Positions 1 to 62,998 of a stretch of DNA of 64,000 bases are shown piece after piece; within the stretch, counting starts at the first letter, position 1; the number at the start of each line of letters is the position of its first letter. This DNA is from Neisseria bacilliformis (GTDB lineage Bacteria > Pseudomonadota > Gammaproteobacteria > Burkholderiales > Neisseriaceae). The DNA lies in NCBI RefSeq assembly GCF_014055025.1, contig NZ_CP059571.1, forward strand, positions 2,356,001-2,420,000, in the 5' to 3' direction. The notes beneath the pieces are model-generated. The model worked only from the letters and a program-made list of their open reading frames with translations. It made no database searches and had not been told where the DNA came from. A program made the position numbers and the translations under genes.

Positions 1-1001
<1,001 letters not shown>

Positions 1002-1009
1002 GGTATTGC

Positions 1010-6062: not shown

Positions 6063-6743
6063 ATGAAACCCTTCACCACCCTCACCGCCGCTGCCGTCGC
6101 CTGCACCCTCGCCCTCAGCGGCTGCATCACCTACGCCGACGGCACCCAGAAAGCCAGCAAAACCGCCATGTACGGCCTCGGCGGCGCGGCCGTGTGCGGC
6201 ATCATCGGCGCACTGAGCCACGGCAGCAAAGGCGCGCGCAACTCCGCCCTCGCCTGCGGTGCAGTCGGCGCGGGCGTAGGTGGCTACATGGACTACCAAG
6301 AGAAAAAACTGCGCGAAAACCTCGCCAACACCGGCGTGGACGTCCAACGCAGCGGCGACCAAATCAAACTCGTCATGCCCGAAAACGTAACCTTCGCCAC
6401 CGGCAGCGCCACCCTCAGCACCAACGCGCAAAACGCCCTCGCCGCCGCCGCGCAAACCCTCACCCAATACCCCGACACCACCCTGTCCATCAACGGCCAC
6501 ACCGACAACACCGGCTCCGACGCCATCAACGCCCCCCTGTCGCAACGCCGCGCCCAGGCCGTCGCCAGCTTCCTGCAATCGCGCGGCGTAAACGGCAGCC
6601 GCCTGGCCACCTACGGCCACGGCTCGCGCCAGCCCGTCGCCAGCAACGCCACCGCCGAAGGCCGCGCGCAAAACCGCCGCGTCGAAATCCTGATCAACCC
6701 CGACCAAAACGCCGTCCGCGCCGCCCAGCAGCAAATCCGCTAG
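6063..6743 (+). CDS. OmpA-family lipoprotein
   Basis: Outer-membrane lipoprotein that should bind peptidoglycan. The signal peptide ends in the lipobox LSGC with Cys21 as the lipidated residue. A glycine-rich segment (GLGGAAVCGIIGALSHG) resembles a glycine zipper. The C-terminal OmpA domain covers about residues 95-215, with NGHTDNTGSDAIN and LSQRRAQAV. The length is 226 residues, close to YiaD-like proteins. The Shine-Dalgarno sequence is GAAAGGA. The stop TAG at 6741-6743 is the first triplet of a repeat end (see 6741-6765). Confidence 0.9.
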   Translation: MKPFTTLTAAAVACTLALSGCITYADGTQKASKTAMYGLGGAAVCGIIGALSHGSKGARNSALACGAVGAGVGGYMDYQEKKLRENLANTGVDVQRSGDQIKLVMPENVTFATGSATLSTNAQNALAAAAQTLTQYPDTTLSINGHTDNTGSDAINAPLSQRRAQAVASFLQSRGVNGSRLATYGHGSRQPVASNATAEGRAQNRRVEILINPDQNAVRAAQQQIR

Positions 6744-6765
6744 GACGTGTTGACAATCAACATGC
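6741..6765. repeat. Solitary end of the foldback element
   Basis: TAGGACGTGTTGACAATCAA matches the ends of the 841 and 53145 elements with one change. No opposite end is found. Its TAG ends the OmpA-like gene. Confidence 0.55.
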
Positions 6766-6842: not shown

Positions 6843-6952
6843 GTAGGGTGTCGCCCCAAGGCGACGCACACGTTCCCCGCCGCATCACGGATTTCCGCCA
6901 TGCCACGGGCAACCCGCCGAAACCGCGTGCGTGGCTGCGCCACACACCCTAC
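6843..6952. repeat. Twin-palindrome repeat, full copy 1
   Basis: The left half GTAGGGTGTCGCCCCAAGGC is itself palindromic. The right half, with GCGTGCGTGGCTGCGCCACA, ends ACACCCTAC, so the whole is also bounded by inverted ends. The same ~108 bp unit recurs at 18147, 21120, 21378, 46597, 59403 and 62818. Confidence 0.75.
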
Positions 6953-18056: not shown

Positions 18057-18489
18057 GTTTTACGCCCGCCGCGCAGCGAATCCGCCGCACACCCTGCGCC
18101 TGCGCCCAGCTTGGAATTGTGCTTTCAGACGGCCTCTACTGCACAGGTAGGGTGTGTTGCCCCGAGGCGACGCATGCGTTCCCTGCCGCCCAACGAAAGG
18201 CTGTCTGAAAAACCAAATCCAATACCGCGTGCGCGGCTTACGCCACACACCCTACGTCTGCGCCCTGCTTGGAACTGTGTTTTTCAAACGGTCTCCGCCG
18301 CTAAGGTAGGGTGTGTCGCCCCAAGGCGACGCACGCGTTCTCCGCCGCCCAACGAAAGGCCGTCTGAAAACAAACCGCCAAACAGGTTTTTTCAGAAACG
18401 TCATCCCAGCGTAGGCGGGGACGGCCTTTCGCCTTGCCGCCGCCCGCGCCGGACGGCACAATCGCGCTTTCCGTTTCCGCCGCGCCGCC
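18057..18489. repeat. Gene-free gap of short repeats before glnD
   Basis: No gene is seen. It holds a DUS at about 18124, a full twin-palindrome repeat at 18147-18254 with a variant DUS (AGGCTGTCTGAA) inside, a left half copy from about 18306, another DUS near 18358, and a short GCGTAGGCGGGGACGGCCT repeat at 18387-18426. That last unit also occurs at 26188. Confidence 0.65.
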
Positions 18490-21119: not shown

Positions 21120-21226
21120 GTAGTGTGTGTGGCGCAAGCCACGCACGCGGTTTCCGTTTTTTGGGCAACGCGCGGATTGCTTGCACGGCACAGACCGCGT
21201 GCGCCGCCTCGGGCGGCACACCCTAC
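21120..21226. repeat. Twin-palindrome repeat, copy at 21120
   Basis: Begins GTAGTGTGTGTGGCGCAAGC and ends GGCACACCCTAC; both halves are palindromic. Confidence 0.7.
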
Positions 21227-28460: not shown

Positions 28461-28566
28461 TATAGTGAGACAAATAACAAGTATCCGATTTATGTAGGGT
28501 GGGTCTTGACCCACCGATAACATGCGCAGTCTGTATGCTGTATTTCTTATTTTGTGCCACTATAAC
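28461..28566. repeat. ~105 bp element with terminal inverted repeats
   Basis: The left end TTATAGTGAGACAAATAA matches the complement of the right end (TTATAGTGGCACAAAATAA). Inside is the palindrome GTAGGGTGGGTCTTGACCCACC. No gene. It resembles Correia elements in size and in the TATAGTG start but not in the rest of the end. It lies just upstream of kpsC. Confidence 0.65.
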
Positions 28567-28647
28567 TTCCCTGCCGCCGCACTTTCAGACGGCCTCAAAG
28601 CCCGCAGAGGCCGTCTGAAAACATCAAATCAAACCCGAACCCAAACC

Positions 28648-30699
28648 GTGAAAACCGCCTACATCCCCTCCGCCGGCATCCGCAACATCCCCGGCCTTGC
28701 CGACTTCCTCCCCGAGTTCCGCATCCGGAAAAAGCCCGCCGGCGCAGACATCGTCATCGGCTGGGGGCTGCGCCCGAGCACCCGCAAAGCGCGCGAATTT
28801 GCCGCCGCACAGGGGCTGCCGTTTGCCGCGCTGGAAGACGGCTTTTTGCGCTCGCTCGGCTTGGGCGTGGACGGCTGGCCGCCGTTTTCAATGGTTTTCG
28901 ACGACATCGGCATCTATTACGACACCACCCGCCCGTCGCGCTTGGAACAATTAATCCTCGCCGCCGACACCCTGTCGCCCGAAACGCTGGACGAAGCCCA
29001 CCGCGCCATCGCCCTGATTCTGGAACACCGCCTGTCCAAATACAACCACGCCCCCAGCCTTTCAGACGGCCTGCTGCAAGAAATGCGGCAGCGGCAAACC
29101 GTGCTGTTAATCGACCAGACTGCCGGCGACATGGCACTGCAATACGGCGGCGCGGACGCGGCCACTTTCGAGCGCATGTTTCAGACGGCCTTGGCGGAAA
29201 ACCCGCAGGCGCAAATCTGGGTCAAAACCCATCCCGACGTGTTGAGCGGCAAAAAACAAGGCTGCCTGACCGACTTGGCGCGGCAAAACCGCGTGCGCCT
29301 GCTGGCCGAAGACATCAACCCGATTTCACTGTTGCAAGCCGCAGACAAAGTTTATTGCGTTACCTCGCAGATGGGTTTTGAAGCCCTGCTGTGCGGCAAA
29401 TCGCCGGTTACCTTCGGCCTGCCGTGGTATGTGGGCTGGGGCGTGAGCGACGACCGCCACCCCGCCGCCGCCGAACTGGCGCGGCAGCAACGGCGCTCTC
29501 CCCGGACTTTGGATCAACTGTTTGCCGCCGCCTATCTGCAATACAGCCGCTACATCAACCCCAACACCGGCAAGGCGGGCACGCTCGCCGACGTGATCGA
29601 TTATTTGGCCGTCGCGCGGCGGCTCAACGAAAAACTGCGCGGCACCTTATACTGCGTGGGCATGTCGCTGTGGAAACGCGCCGTCGTCAAACCGTTTTTC
29701 AACGTGCCCTCATGCCGTCTGAAATTCGTCAAATCGGCGGACAAACTCGCCGCCGAGGCTCTGCCGCCCGACACGCGCCTGCTGGCATGGGGCAGCGGCA
29801 AAGACGAAATCACCCGTTTCGCCGAACAACACAACATCCCCCTGCTGCGCATGGAAGACGGCTTCATCCGCTCGGTCGGCCTCGGCTCCAACCTCGTGCC
29901 GCCGCTCTCGCTCGTCATCGACGACATGGGCATCTACTTCAACCCCGAAACGCCCTCCCGCCTCGAACACATCCTGCAACACCAAACTTTCAACCAACAG
30001 GATTTTCAGACGGCTTCCCTGCTGCAACAGGTGCTCACAGCAAACAAAATCAGCAAATACAACGTCGGCAGCGCAAATTTCAGCGTGCCGAAAACCGACA
30101 AAACCGTCATCCTCGTTCCCGGCCAGGTCGAAGACGACGCCTCTATCCGCCACGGCTCGCCGCAAATCCGCCGCAACCTCGACCTGCTCAAAACCGTGCG
30201 CGAACGCAACCCCGACGCCTACATCATCTACAAACCACATCCCGACGTCGTCAGCGGCAACCGCATCGGCCGCATCGCCCCCGAAGACGCCGCCCGTTAC
30301 GCCGACCAAACCGCACCCGAAGCCGACATCCTCACCTGCCTGCAACACGCCGACGAAGTGCACACCATGACCTCGCTCACCGGCTTTGAAGCCCTGCTGC
30401 GCGGCAAAAAAGTCTGCTGCTACGGCCTGCCGTTTTACGCCGGTTGGGGGCTGACCCAAGACACCCTGCCCATCCCCCGCCGCAACCGCCGGCTCGAATT
30501 GTGGCAGCTTGCCGCCGGCACGCTGGTTTACTACCCAAGCTACGTCCACCCCGAAACCCGCCGCCTCATCAACGTCGCCACCGCTGTGAAAATTTTAAAG
30601 CAACATAAAAATTTACAGAAAAAAAACAACAATCTGCGCAGAAGCTGGCTGAACAAAAAACTGGAAAAAGCAAAGCAGTTTTACCGTTCGCTTCGCTAG
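28648..30699 (+). CDS. lipA: Capsule polysaccharide beta-Kdo transferase KpsC (LipA/CtrE)
   Basis: Retaining beta-Kdo glycosyltransferase that with KpsS builds the poly-Kdo linker on lysophosphatidylglycerol, the anchor of ABC-exported capsules. The two tandem transferase halves are visible: GWGLRPSTRKAREFA, LPFAALEDGFLRSLGLG, KTHPDVLSGKK in the first; GSGKDEITRFAEQHNI, LRMEDGFIRSVGLG, YKPHPDVVSGNR in the second. It starts at GTG 28648 (683 residues), since upstream codons cross a DUS pair and a repeat element. Several DUS are in frame. The stop TAG is the first triplet of a repeat end at 30697. kpsS is not present. Confidence 0.9.
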   Translation: MKTAYIPSAGIRNIPGLADFLPEFRIRKKPAGADIVIGWGLRPSTRKAREFAAAQGLPFAALEDGFLRSLGLGVDGWPPFSMVFDDIGIYYDTTRPSRLEQLILAADTLSPETLDEAHRAIALILEHRLSKYNHAPSLSDGLLQEMRQRQTVLLIDQTAGDMALQYGGADAATFERMFQTALAENPQAQIWVKTHPDVLSGKKQGCLTDLARQNRVRLLAEDINPISLLQAADKVYCVTSQMGFEALLCGKSPVTFGLPWYVGWGVSDDRHPAAAELARQQRRSPRTLDQLFAAAYLQYSRYINPNTGKAGTLADVIDYLAVARRLNEKLRGTLYCVGMSLWKRAVVKPFFNVPSCRLKFVKSADKLAAEALPPDTRLLAWGSGKDEITRFAEQHNIPLLRMEDGFIRSVGLGSNLVPPLSLVIDDMGIYFNPETPSRLEHILQHQTFNQQDFQTASLLQQVLTANKISKYNVGSANFSVPKTDKTVILVPGQVEDDASIRHGSPQIRRNLDLLKTVRERNPDAYIIYKPHPDVVSGNRIGRIAPEDAARYADQTAPEADILTCLQHADEVHTMTSLTGFEALLRGKKVCCYGLPFYAGWGLTQDTLPIPRRNRRLELWQLAAGTLVYYPSYVHPETRRLINVATAVKILKQHKNLQKKNNNLRRSWLNKKLEKAKQFYRSLR

Positions 30700-30718
30700 G
30701 GTGTGTTAACAATCAGCT
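30697..30718. repeat. Solitary end of the foldback element
   Basis: TAGGGTGTGTTAACAATCAG closely matches the element ends at 841, 45158 and 53145; no partner end is seen. Its TAG is the kpsC stop codon. Confidence 0.6.
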
Positions 30719-31149
30719 TGTGATTTCGGAAATCATTAGGTCAAACAGCAGTCAAACCCAACTGCCTAACCATTCTGCCAAACCCAGAACAAACCGAGAT
30801 GCAATAAGCCACCGATTCGGGAATAAGAAAATACTGGTATAATTCAAAAAATTTTTTTCCAAAACACCTTGCGGCATCTATGCTTCTTCGCAAACATCAA
30901 AAATAAAAAGGAAATTTTTAGAAACGGCAATCAAAGATACAATGTCTCAAAATACAATCATAAAATCATATTGATCACATCATTTCTAAAATACTTCCAT
31001 TTAAGACACACTCTATTTCATAACCATAAAACATATCCCTAGTTGTTTTCCATATCAAGATATGTTTATAAATTTAAGTATTAGCAGCTTAATACTGGAA
31101 TAAAGTTAAAAAATAAATTATAGATATTGGATTTAAACCGAGTTTTCCT
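30700..31149. promoter_or_regulatory. AT-rich leader of ctrABCD
   Basis: 450 bases without a gene, far richer in A and T than the rest of the window. It holds the palindrome TGATTTCGGAAATCA (30721-30735), an extended -10 TGGTATAAT (30835-30843), CATATCAAGATATG (31051-31064) and AGTATTA/TAATACT (31077-31096). If transcription begins near 30850 the mRNA leader is about 300 bases. Regulation by protein binding or RNA structure is possible but unproven. Confidence 0.5.
30835..30843 (+). promoter_or_regulatory. Extended -10 promoter candidate for ctrA
   Basis: TGG-TATAAT fits an extended -10. The -35 at normal spacing is poor (ATTCGG or TTCGGG). Confidence 0.45.
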
Positions 31150-45136: not shown

Positions 45137-45157
45137 AAACCGGTTTGCACTCTTTAT

Positions 45158-45317
45158 GGTCTGTTGACAATCAGCTTGCGAGCGGTTTTTTGAGTAAAAA
45201 ATGCCCGAATGCAAGGAAAAAAGCGCAGCAAGGTTGGACACCTGCGGGCATTTTTGACGCGGCAGACGGGTATTTTTTGCCAAAAACACCGCCGCAAGGC
45301 TGATTGTCAACAGACCC
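45158..45317. repeat. ~160 bp foldback element, copy 2 (divergent)
   Basis: Ends GGTCTGTTGACAATCAGC and GCTGATTGTCAACAGACC are exact complements. The interior differs much from copies 1 and 3 but also folds back (GGTATTTTTTGCC, GCATTTTTGACGC). It fills the folD-lipoprotein gap. Confidence 0.75.
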
Positions 45318-45366
45318 TAAGCAAAGCTGAAACACAGTCCGCAAAACAAACGCAAACGGCAACCGT

Positions 45367-46596: not shown

Positions 46597-46702
46597 GTAG
46601 GGTGTGCCGCCCCGAGGCGGCGCACGCGTTTCCTGCCACCGACAAAATCCGTGCCCGCCCCGCCATCCGAAACCGCGTGCGTGGCTGCGCCACACACCCT
46701 AC
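46597..46702. repeat. Twin-palindrome repeat, copy at 46597
   Basis: Begins GTAGGGTGTGCCGCCCCGAG and ends GGCTGCGCCACACACCCTAC. Confidence 0.75.
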
Positions 46703-51779: not shown

Positions 51780-53147
51780 ATGCTCGACAACCTTACCGGC
51801 CGCTTCCGCTCCGTGTTCAAAAACATCAGCGGTGCGGCCACGCTCAACGAAGACAACATCAAACCCGCCCTGCGCGAAGTGCGCCTCGCCCTCTTGGAAG
51901 CCGACGTCGCCCTGCCCGTGGTGCGCGATTTCGTCGCCAAAGTGAAGGAAAAGGCACTCGGCCGCGAAATCAGCGAAAACCTCACGGCGGAACAGGCATT
52001 TATCACCGTCGTCAACCAAGCCCTCGTCGAACTGATGGGCGGCGCGAACAGTAGCCTCAACCTTGCCGCCGCCGCGCCAGCCGTGGTGCTGATGGCCGGT
52101 TTGCAGGGCGCGGGCAAAACCACCACCGTCGGCAAACTCGCCCGCCTGCTCAAAACGCAGGACAAAAAGAAAAAAATCCTGCTCGTTTCCACCGACGTGT
52201 ACCGCCCCGCCGCCATCGAGCAACTGCGCCTGCTCGCCGAACAGGTGCAGGCCGATTTCTTCCCCTCCAACGTCTCGCAAAAACCGGTCGAAATCGCCCG
52301 CGCCGCCCTCGCCCAAGCCAAACGCGGCTTCTACGACGTGCTGATGGTCGATACCGCCGGCCGGCTGGCCATCGATCAGGAAATGATGGACGAAATCAAA
52401 GAGCTGCACGCCGCGCTCGATCCGGTGGAAACCCTGTTTGTCGTCGACGCCATGCTCGGCCAGGACGCGGTGAACACCGCGCAGGCGTTCAATGAAGCCC
52501 TGCCGCTCACCGGCGTCATCCTCACCAAGATGGACGGCGACTCGCGCGGCGGCGCGGCCTTGTCGGTGCGCAAAATCACCGGCAAGCCGATTAAGTTTTT
52601 CGGCACGGGTGAAAAAACCGACGGCCTCGAAGCCTTCCACCCCGACCGCATCGCCTCGCGCATTCTGGGCATGGGCGACGTGCTGACGCTGGTGGAGGAC
52701 GTGCAAAAAGGCATAGACGAAGAGGCCGCCGCCGAAATGGCGAAAAAGCTGCGGCGCGGCAAAAGTTTCGACCTCAACGATTTCAAATTGCAGATCCAGC
52801 AGATGCGCAATATGGGCGGACTGGAAAACCTGATGTCGAAAATGCCCGGCGAAATCGGCCAGCTTTCCAAACAGATTCCCGAAGGCACGGCGGAAAAGGC
52901 GATGGGGCATGTGGAAGCCATCATCAATTCGATGACCCCGAAAGAGCGCGCCAACCCCGCGCTCATCAAAGCCTCGCGCAAACGCCGCATCGCCGCCGGC
53001 GCGGGCACGACGGTGCAGGAAGTGAACAAAATGCTCAAACAGTTCGAGCAGTCGCAGCAGATGATGAAAATGTTCAGCGGCAACAATATGCGCAAGCTGA
53101 TGAGCCTGGCCAAAGGCATGAAGGGCGTGTTCCCCGGCATGAAGTAG
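51780..53147 (+). CDS. ffh: Signal recognition particle protein Ffh
   Basis: SRP54 GTPase that targets nascent membrane proteins with 4.5S RNA and FtsY. 455 residues: N domain, G1 GLQGAGKTTT at residues 107-116, DVYRPAAIEQL, LVDTAGRLAID, TKMDGDSRGGAALS, and a Met-rich M domain ending GMKGVFPGMK. AAGGAA precedes the ATG at 51780. The stop TAG (53145-53147) is the first triplet of the foldback element that follows. Confidence 0.96.
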   Translation: MLDNLTGRFRSVFKNISGAATLNEDNIKPALREVRLALLEADVALPVVRDFVAKVKEKALGREISENLTAEQAFITVVNQALVELMGGANSSLNLAAAAPAVVLMAGLQGAGKTTTVGKLARLLKTQDKKKKILLVSTDVYRPAAIEQLRLLAEQVQADFFPSNVSQKPVEIARAALAQAKRGFYDVLMVDTAGRLAIDQEMMDEIKELHAALDPVETLFVVDAMLGQDAVNTAQAFNEALPLTGVILTKMDGDSRGGAALSVRKITGKPIKFFGTGEKTDGLEAFHPDRIASRILGMGDVLTLVEDVQKGIDEEAAAEMAKKLRRGKSFDLNDFKLQIQQMRNMGGLENLMSKMPGEIGQLSKQIPEGTAEKAMGHVEAIINSMTPKERANPALIKASRKRRIAAGAGTTVQEVNKMLKQFEQSQQMMKMFSGNNMRKLMSLAKGMKGVFPGMK

Positions 53148-53309
53148 GGTGTGTTGACATTCAACTTTTGAAGCGGATTTTGCGGCAGAAAACGGCAGAT
53201 GCAAGGCGGAAACACGAGCCTATGCCGTCCATAGGAGAGTGTTTTCAACGCGGCAGATGCCGTTTTATGACGGAAAAGCCGCCAAAATGTTGATTGTCAA
53301 CACACCCTA
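53145..53309. repeat. ~165 bp foldback element, copy 3
   Basis: The ends TAGGGTGTGTTGAC and GTCAACACACCCTA are exact complements. The inner sequence (AGCGGATTTTGCGGCAGAAA ... GCGGCAGATGCCGTTTTA) folds back and matches copy 1. It supplies the ffh stop codon. Confidence 0.8.
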
Positions 53310-53369: not shown

Positions 53370-53538
53370 CCGATTGATGCGCGGGCGGAATGCGGGCAAA
53401 AAAAATACCATCTATACCAAGGGGAAAGTATAGATGGCCAAACACATTACGGGGAAAACGTCTTACTCACATGTCTGCCCGAAGGCAAACGTTGTCAGAC
53501 GGGCGCATATTAAAACCGCCGCATCGGAGGCCGTCTGA
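53370..53538 (+). other. Lower-GC island, possible gene remnant
   Basis: One frame without a start reads KKYHLYQGESIDGQTHYGEN, then VLLTCLPEGKRCQTGAY and stops near 53512; its look is that of a real protein end. Another frame has ATG at 53434 for 34 residues, stopping in a DUS at 53538. A hairpin CCATCTATAC/GTATAGATGG is at 53408-53437. I cannot say whether any of it is translated. Confidence 0.3.
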
Positions 53539-57652: not shown

Positions 57653-57690
57653 GTAGGGTGTGTGGCACAAGCCGCGCACGCGGTTTGCGC
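57653..57690. repeat. Half copy of the twin-palindrome repeat
   Basis: GTAGGGTGTGTGGCACAAGC, then GCGCACGCGGTTTGCG, left half only; a DUS follows. Confidence 0.55.
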
Positions 57691-59402: not shown

Positions 59403-59510
59403 GTAGGGTGTGCGGCGCAGCCACGCACGCGGTTTCGGACTTTGGGGGAAAGACACGGATTTGTCGGGGAGCAGGAAACGCGTGCGTCGCCTTGGGGCGA
59501 CACACCCTAC
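59403..59510. repeat. Twin-palindrome repeat, copy at 59403
   Basis: Begins GTAGGGTGTGCGGCGCAGCC and ends TTGGGGCGACACACCCTAC. Confidence 0.75.
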
Positions 59511-61261: not shown

Positions 61262-61281
61262 GCTTAGGGTGTGTTGACAGG
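61262..61281. repeat. Solitary end of the foldback element
   Basis: TTAGGGTGTGTTGACAGGCC; matches the element end for 15 bases, no partner found. Confidence 0.45.
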
Positions 61282-62472: not shown

Positions 62473-62998
62473 GTGTGTCTCCGTGTGTTTGTCTGTTAAA
62501 AAAAGAAACGCGCGTTTTAAACCTGCGCGGGGGAAAAGTAAAGTTTTTTATGCGCGGCGGGGTTTTGGCTGCATCGAAGTAGTGTTTTCAGACGGCCTGT
62601 ATGGGATTTGAGGCCGTCTGAAAACCGTATTGCGTGGGTTTTGGCTGCATCGAAGCTGCGCTTTCAGACGGCCTCTGCCGCATAAAGTATCCGTGTCTTG
62701 CGCTCAAACCGTAACCGCGTGCGCGGCTGCGCCACACACCTACCTTAGCGGCGGAGGCCGTCTGAAAAAAACAGTTTTTCAGACGGCCTGTTCCATCCGA
62801 CCCATGCAGAACCTAAGGTAGGGTGTGCCGCCCCGAGGCGACGCACGCGTTCTCTGCTGTCCAACAAATCTGCGCGTTTCACCCAAAAATCCAAACCGCG
62901 TGCGTGGCTTGCGCCACACACCCTACCTAAGAGGCAGAGGCCGTCTGAAAAGATGTTTTCGGTTTTTCAGACGGCCTCTGCATATCCGTTTTGTCTGT
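62473..62998. repeat. Gene-free gap filled with repeats
   Basis: No gene is seen. In order: a core-plus-DUS piece to 62598; a DUS-bounded stem-loop at 62611-62674; a right half of the twin-palindrome repeat near 62707-62744; an inverted DUS pair at 62755-62789; a full twin-palindrome repeat at 62818-62926; and a DUS pair at 62938-62977 that should terminate hemN. Confidence 0.7.

Follow-up and report, generated by a model that had tools for sequence, protein, structure and literature searches.

Small hairpin elements in Neisseria bacilliformis that insert at TA and turn stop codons into TAG

Elements and stop codons in the window

The window analysed here is a 64-kb stretch of the N. bacilliformis genome (the host genome; 2.49 Mb, single contig). 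Genes in the window and in 63 fetched loci were called with a simple purpose-made caller based on codon-usage scores, and elements were scored with R1, a model built from an alignment (A1) of 37 full copies from the host genome. The features that concern us are:

840..1002, + strand: full-length element with decayed flanks CA/TG (R1 159.1 bits)
6741..6763, + strand: apparent remnant of one end, its TAG the stop of an OmpA-like lipoprotein gene, 6063-6743 (NF053611)
30697..30725, + strand: apparent remnant of one end, its TAG the stop of a KpsC-like gene, 28522-30699 (Pfam Capsule_synth, 5e-113)
45155..45319, + strand: full-length element with TA/TA flanks (R1 179.7 bits)
51780..53147, + strand: ffh, signal recognition particle protein (TIGR00959, 2.3e-173), stop TAG at 53145-53147
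53145..53309, + strand: full-length element 53147-53307 with flanking TA at 53145-53146 and 53308-53309 (R1 177.8 bits)
61265..61279, + strand: solitary end of sequence TAGGGTGTGTTGACA, lying between two called genes and not at a stop

An earlier note on this DNA had described three fold-back elements of ~160 bp with inverted ends, and all three are full copies that do have inverted ends and fold back, lying 0–3 bases from where it had placed them. It had also noticed that the TAG of an end is the stop codon of three genes, which we could reproduce for the OmpA-like lipoprotein (6741-6743), the KpsC-like gene, whose product is a capsule protein (30697-30699), and ffh (53145-53147). The ffh stop is made up of the left flanking TA and the first G of the element, and the restored empty site reads TAA. 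The element at 45155-45319 lies 18 bp past a TGA stop. Two of the solitary ends listed in the note were found again at 6741 and 30697, where they look like remnants of about 20–25 bases; the third starts at 61265 and not at 61262. Across the window there were 16 matches to the 12-base end with up to 2 mismatches, vs 4.5 expected. The note had seen no transposase in the window, and the two transposase families covered here, PF01609 and PF13358, gave no match there.

The window holds a second repeat family, with GTAGGGTGTG-type ends and a length of about 100 bp where these are paired (10 near-matches vs 0.12 expected). It occurs at 6844-6952, 18147-18255, 18306-18326, 21120-21226, 46597-46617, 57653-57673, 59490-59510 and 62818-62926, and it looks like a set of GTAG-tagged palindromes distinct from the TAG-end hairpin element.

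Copies across the N. bacilliformis genome

A genome-wide search for the end sequence, one of the checks that the note had proposed, returned 78 exact ends (GGGT[CG]TGTTGAC) and none with the reversed pattern, and a profile search with R1 found at least 62 copies. We read 60 full copies of 162–179 bp, including the flanking dinucleotides. The hairpin element is short and dispersed in many copies, as a MITE should be, and it has terminal inverted repeats, the outer stem being 95.7% paired over 30 sequences. A1 contains two subtypes, and in 18 of its 47 predicted pairs both sides have changed with pairing kept. Two of the three reading frames of an end contain a stop: TAG, and AGG GTC TGT TGA.

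Some copies measure just 25 bp (L037 1580-1608, L026 3640-3668 and L027 5546-5574); nothing but the two ends is left of them, as a near-perfect palindrome, probably through loss of the hairpin interior. Elements are also found abutting in pairs with one TA in common (L094 261-586 in G038; L016 near 1431-1434, i.e. G000:547430-547433 of the host genome). Their junction, CCCTAGGG, is a CTAG target in its own right, which would favour tandem insertion.

Target site and the excess at stop codons

Of the 60 full copies, 18 have an end whose TAG is the exact stop of a called gene. Stop TAs make up 7.9% of the non-coding-plus-stop TAs outside elements, so that 4.7 of the 60 would be expected at stops (binomial p about 5e-7). 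The note had suggested counting how often an end closes a gene, and a chance frequency, which would have spoken against its idea, is not what we found. Relative to the gene, 8 of the 18 elements point with it and 10 against it, with no strand bias.

The copies also reveal the insertion site. TA was present on both flanks of 30 of the 60 host copies, the other 30 having at least one decayed flank. Among 67 copies from other genomes (N. dentiae, 25; MAG S28M_Sa_33, 23; MAG S5R_Sa_39, 14; five others, including Eikenella), a set picked by the exact core pattern and not a random sample, 56 had TA/TA flanks and 9 lay at a stop TAG, where stops account for 4.0–4.8% of TA sites. In addition, relatives have the stop with a single TA. 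Taken together, restored sites and relatives identify TA as the insertion site, with YTAR preferred and the TA duplicated. This preference bears out one of the note's suggestions, that the target is TAG-like.

Thirteen of the 30 TA/TA host copies were at stops. When the element and one TA were removed, the codon became TAA in 8, TAG in 5 and a tyrosine codon in none; the remaining 5 of the 18 stop cases have a decayed flank, which makes restoration impossible. The clean cases from other genomes restored TAA (5) or TAG (3) in 8 of 8, so a prior stop codon was recovered in all 21 (13 host and 8 other). The note had proposed that insertion creates or replaces stops; replacement (TAA to TAG) stands, whereas creation is not supported, since every clean case had a stop codon at the site before the element arrived.

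To account for the YTAR preference, we derived target weights from 17 non-stop sites. Over all non-coding TA, the weighted expectation was 8.2–8.3 of 60 at stops, and the excess remained (18 vs 8.2). It disappeared only when the comparison was confined to the stop codon and the following 50 bp, where 18 of 29 insertions were in the stop codon and 17.0 are predicted from the motif (p 0.42); the same comparison without motif weights gave 12.0 of 29 (p 0.02). The motif and a tolerated position therefore suffice for the share of stops, and insertion aimed at stop codons as such is not supported.

There is also an excess in gene tails themselves (the stop or up to 50 bp after it), where 29 of the 60 copies lie and the target weights predict 14.0. 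Where the nearest stop is over 50 bp away there were 9 copies vs 23.9 expected, and within 50 bp of starts 11 vs 8.3 expected, so no depletion. The gene-tail excess can reflect either selection or preference, two causes that these counts do not separate. A transposition machinery that prefers gene ends, for instance by homing on terminator hairpins or on RNA polymerase or ribosomes as they terminate, and hits stops as a by-product, would explain both the crowded tails and the sparse distant class. However, selection against insertion elsewhere yields the same pattern, the distant class may be inflated by uncalled small genes, the motif alone covers the stop share within tails, and there is no depletion near starts. 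We regard such active targeting as distinctly improbable.

The same loci in relatives

We found ffh in 46 of 46 Neisseria genomes and could read 28 of the 29 loci fetched from relatives. The stop was TAA in 22, TAG in 3 and TGA in 3, and the element was absent from the ffh stop in all 28. In one relative, G012, ffh has the same last residues, FPGMK, followed by TAA and no element. The 17 other stop loci were searched in G012 and a second relative, G016, with usable matches for 13 (18 rows). For 8 of them, one relative or both stop at the same codon; for 2 the relative's stop is one codon later (in one of which the alignment spans part of the query only), and for 3 it is at a different position (the relative being longer by 4–9 and 11 codons, or shorter by 5). 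With ffh included, the 14 loci divide into 9 with the same codon, 2 within one codon and 3 that differ. Comparison with element-free relatives, as the note had advised, thus gives the same stop or one within a single codon at 11 of 14 loci. Relatives with the same stop and no element, which the note had named as evidence against itself, tell against the creation of stops (9 of 14).

These data also bear on the possibility that elements insert upstream of the original stop and truncate genes, the new stop coming from the frames of the end. This could describe surE, the stop of which is in the second frame of a copy, 11 bases inside the element, and 3 of the 14 loci differ in length from their relatives, two being shorter in the host. 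Nevertheless, truncation is contradicted at most compared loci by the prior stop recovered in all clean cases and by the positions of the relatives' stops. Single loci may fit, but as a general account we consider it very unlikely indeed.

A longer subtype of the same hairpin family, about 190 bp, occurs in N. dentiae and S28M_Sa_33 (L262, L266, L270, L292 at 246-436, L293 and others).

A candidate mobilising transposase

In the host genome there were no matches to the IS630 transposase (PF13358) and 19 to PF01609. The 8 PF01609 loci that we read had other ends or none, and none of the 19 had an exact element end closer than 4 kb. Wide pairs of ends at genome positions 547433-548574 (which contains surE), 998728-1000865 and 1440343-1441624 had no recognised transposase among their reading frames. 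By these searches (PF13358, PF01609 and proximity of ends), an IS with the element's ends was not found in the host genome; one remote homologue, at 2324875, is without inverted ends. IS630 was rejected as a partner: it is missing from the host genome and has different ends in relatives.

The note had also suggested looking for an IS with the same ends, and in related genomes we did find IS5-family ISs (NF033580, about 810–875 bp) with ends of this kind and TA flanks. NF033580 corresponds to the IS427-like group, and IS5-group elements target TA/YTAR. One type is present in G010 (11 loci, TAGGGTCTGTCGACATTCAAGTTT and slight variants), G028 and G043, and a second in G034, G038 and G015 (TAGGGCTTCCTGACAATT and variants). 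The transposase was sampled in one G010 and one G034 copy, parts of which gave matches to NF033580, PF13340 and PF01609. An NF033580 transposase bounded by the same ends was therefore found in related genomes and not found in the host genome. The G010 IS has 114 plasmid records at 60–80% identity; phage collections gave no match to the element, and plasmid collections none to an N. dentiae copy.

We scored an end as matching when it was within 3 of the 18 bases of an IS end. In S28M_Sa_33, 35 of 46 MITE ends match the genome's own IS and none of 46 the S5R IS; in S5R_Sa_39, 27 of 28 match its own IS and none of 28 the S28M IS; and in G038, 7 of 8 match the local IS (vs 0 of 8). In the host genome, 80 of 120 ends match the S28M/G010 type and 0 of 120 the S5R, G038 or G015 types. 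MITE ends are unlike the resident IS in G010 (0 of 6 sampled match) and G043 (0 of 2 sampled), and 1 of 2 match in G015. In N. dentiae, 10 of 50 match the nearest IS type, and G020 and G012 (0 of 2 each) match no IS found. Ends common to the MITE and an autonomous element were thus seen in 3 of the 6 genomes that have both, all of them relatives. No intact IS partner was found for GTAGTCA-type ends, and G023 has a 282-bp stretch with such ends. A PF13340 search in four other genomes of the order gave 9 loci, all in G089 and without convincing ends; therefore, the matching of ends to transposases is shown only inside Neisseria.

A 209-bp piece in G028 (L242 1474-1682) is an IS that has lost its interior and kept both ends. 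It makes a second sort of miniature element, one without the hairpin core.

A conserved hairpin core

R1 matches 26 of 46 Neisseria genomes. A second model, R2, built from 30 diverse Neisseria copies (alignment A3), matches 34 of 83 Neisseriaceae genomes (6 of 12 genera) and 69 of 300 genomes in a sample of the order, 64 of these outside Neisseriaceae. In a phylum sample it matches 39 of 398. Twelve of these belong to the order and two, both weak, to other orders of the class, while 25 are more distant; the best of the 25 has 3.8e-11 and many come from a single family, and they may be related or may be chance hits.

In A3, both sides have changed in 35 of 57 pairs, and 96.8% of cells pair, vs 38–46% when slid. 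A further alignment, A4, covers 14 other families of the order with 20 loci from 17 genomes. It has both-side changes in 54 of 57 pairs and 95.1% pairing vs 36–41% slid, in loci picked by R2 score; their alignment to R2 biases these figures towards pairing. In A3, identity between genomes is 0.78 for the core and 0.58 for the outer stem; between A4 sequences it is 0.68 and 0.35, where the match is full-length in 10 of 20 only, which leaves about 10 sequences for the outer stem. With pairing kept and the core more alike than the outer stem, it follows that the outer stem has been replaced while paired and that the core persists.

On the modelled strand, G-U pairs outnumber A-C mismatches (62 to 18 in A3, 41 to 8 in A4 and 40 to 24 in A1; the cells are non-independent), which hints at selection on one of the RNA strands. 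That asymmetry, along with pairing preserved through compensatory change, would suit elements retained at gene ends as an RNA hairpin terminator or RNase III site, as has been reported for NEMIS. The near-even orientation of the 18 stop cases indicates no preferred transcript strand, and we think such a role unlikely to explain retention at stops.

It is possible, though we would not yet favour it, that these elements form an order-wide mobile hairpin family set by its conserved interior (gCAAGGCGCaaA.nCgcA.GC - stem - GCgAGnaTttGCAACGCcGc) and not by its ends. The core would have been repeatedly given new self-complementary ends matching IS5-type transposases, and would be selected as a hairpin, either RNA or single-stranded DNA. 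A conserved core with differing ends would permit tests of transposase switching by MITEs and of the role of an internal hairpin.

A model for insertion at stop codons

We propose that the elements are very probably MITEs that insert at TA/YTAR, are moved by an IS5-family transposase, are neutral at stops and later decay to solitary ends, a reading drawn from comparison of sequences. The non-coding hairpin elements, about 160 bp, would be mobilised in trans. They enter at TA, with YTAR preferred, and duplicate the TA, as restored sites and relatives show. Both TAA and TAG consist of TA and a purine, which makes stop codons good targets. Since the element starts with G, any insertion into TAA or TAG gives TAG again and leaves the protein as it was. 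Insertions at stops would be neutral and survive, while most others within genes would be lost. Later decay would strip the rest of the element, but the TAG end would stay, being needed as the gene's stop; the solitary ends at 6741 and 30697 would be examples. The model would account for the TAG stops, and the solitary repeat ends, of several genes, and shows how an element can have a harmless landing site built in (target TA plus first base G).

Comparison with known systems

A MITE with an IS partner is a known kind of system; for this element itself, we found neither an Rfam family nor a paper. No Rfam model reached the gathering score over copies (31 sources or stretches searched). The hits were miRNA models only (L328), far below gathering, and a Neisseria sRNA match (IR_84) below gathering at 53392-53500 is outside the element. 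No paper containing the element sequences or describing the element was found in open-licence PMC; one of the short sequences occurs in 8 papers, and the titles of 6 of these concern unrelated subjects.

Correia is the Neisseria element named in passages of two reviews (PMC2229807, PMC10969869). As described in PMC2229807, Correia/NEMIS resembles the host element in being a small hairpin MITE with TA termini, a TA duplication and many copies. In contrast, the host element has TAGGGTCTGTTGAC ends, a different interior and a candidate partner of IS5 type. The Correia end sequence is TATAGTGGATTAA, and the consensus ends of the hairpin element differ from that repeat. The IS5-family ISs (NF033580) of related genomes have terminal inverted repeats and TA flanks of the same kind, but are about 810–875 bp with a transposase, and the ends alone were seen in common, not the hairpin core. 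The pneumococcal RUP and IS630-Spn1 are comparable in that the MITE ends match the IS, the target is TA and mobilisation in trans is inferred (PMC2229807); this likeness is by description, and RUP differs in its organism and in having an IS630 and not an IS5 partner. ERIC/IRU is, according to a table of that review (PMC2229807), a TA-terminated MITE with a long stem-loop. It is enterobacterial, and its sequence is not known to resemble that of the host element.

G010 additionally carries an IS630-type IS (PF13358; L146, L150, L163 and L168). It measures about 920 bp, and its ends, of the form TATAGTGAATTAAAATAAGAA, resemble the Correia end. Judged by those ends, it could be a partner of Correia elements.
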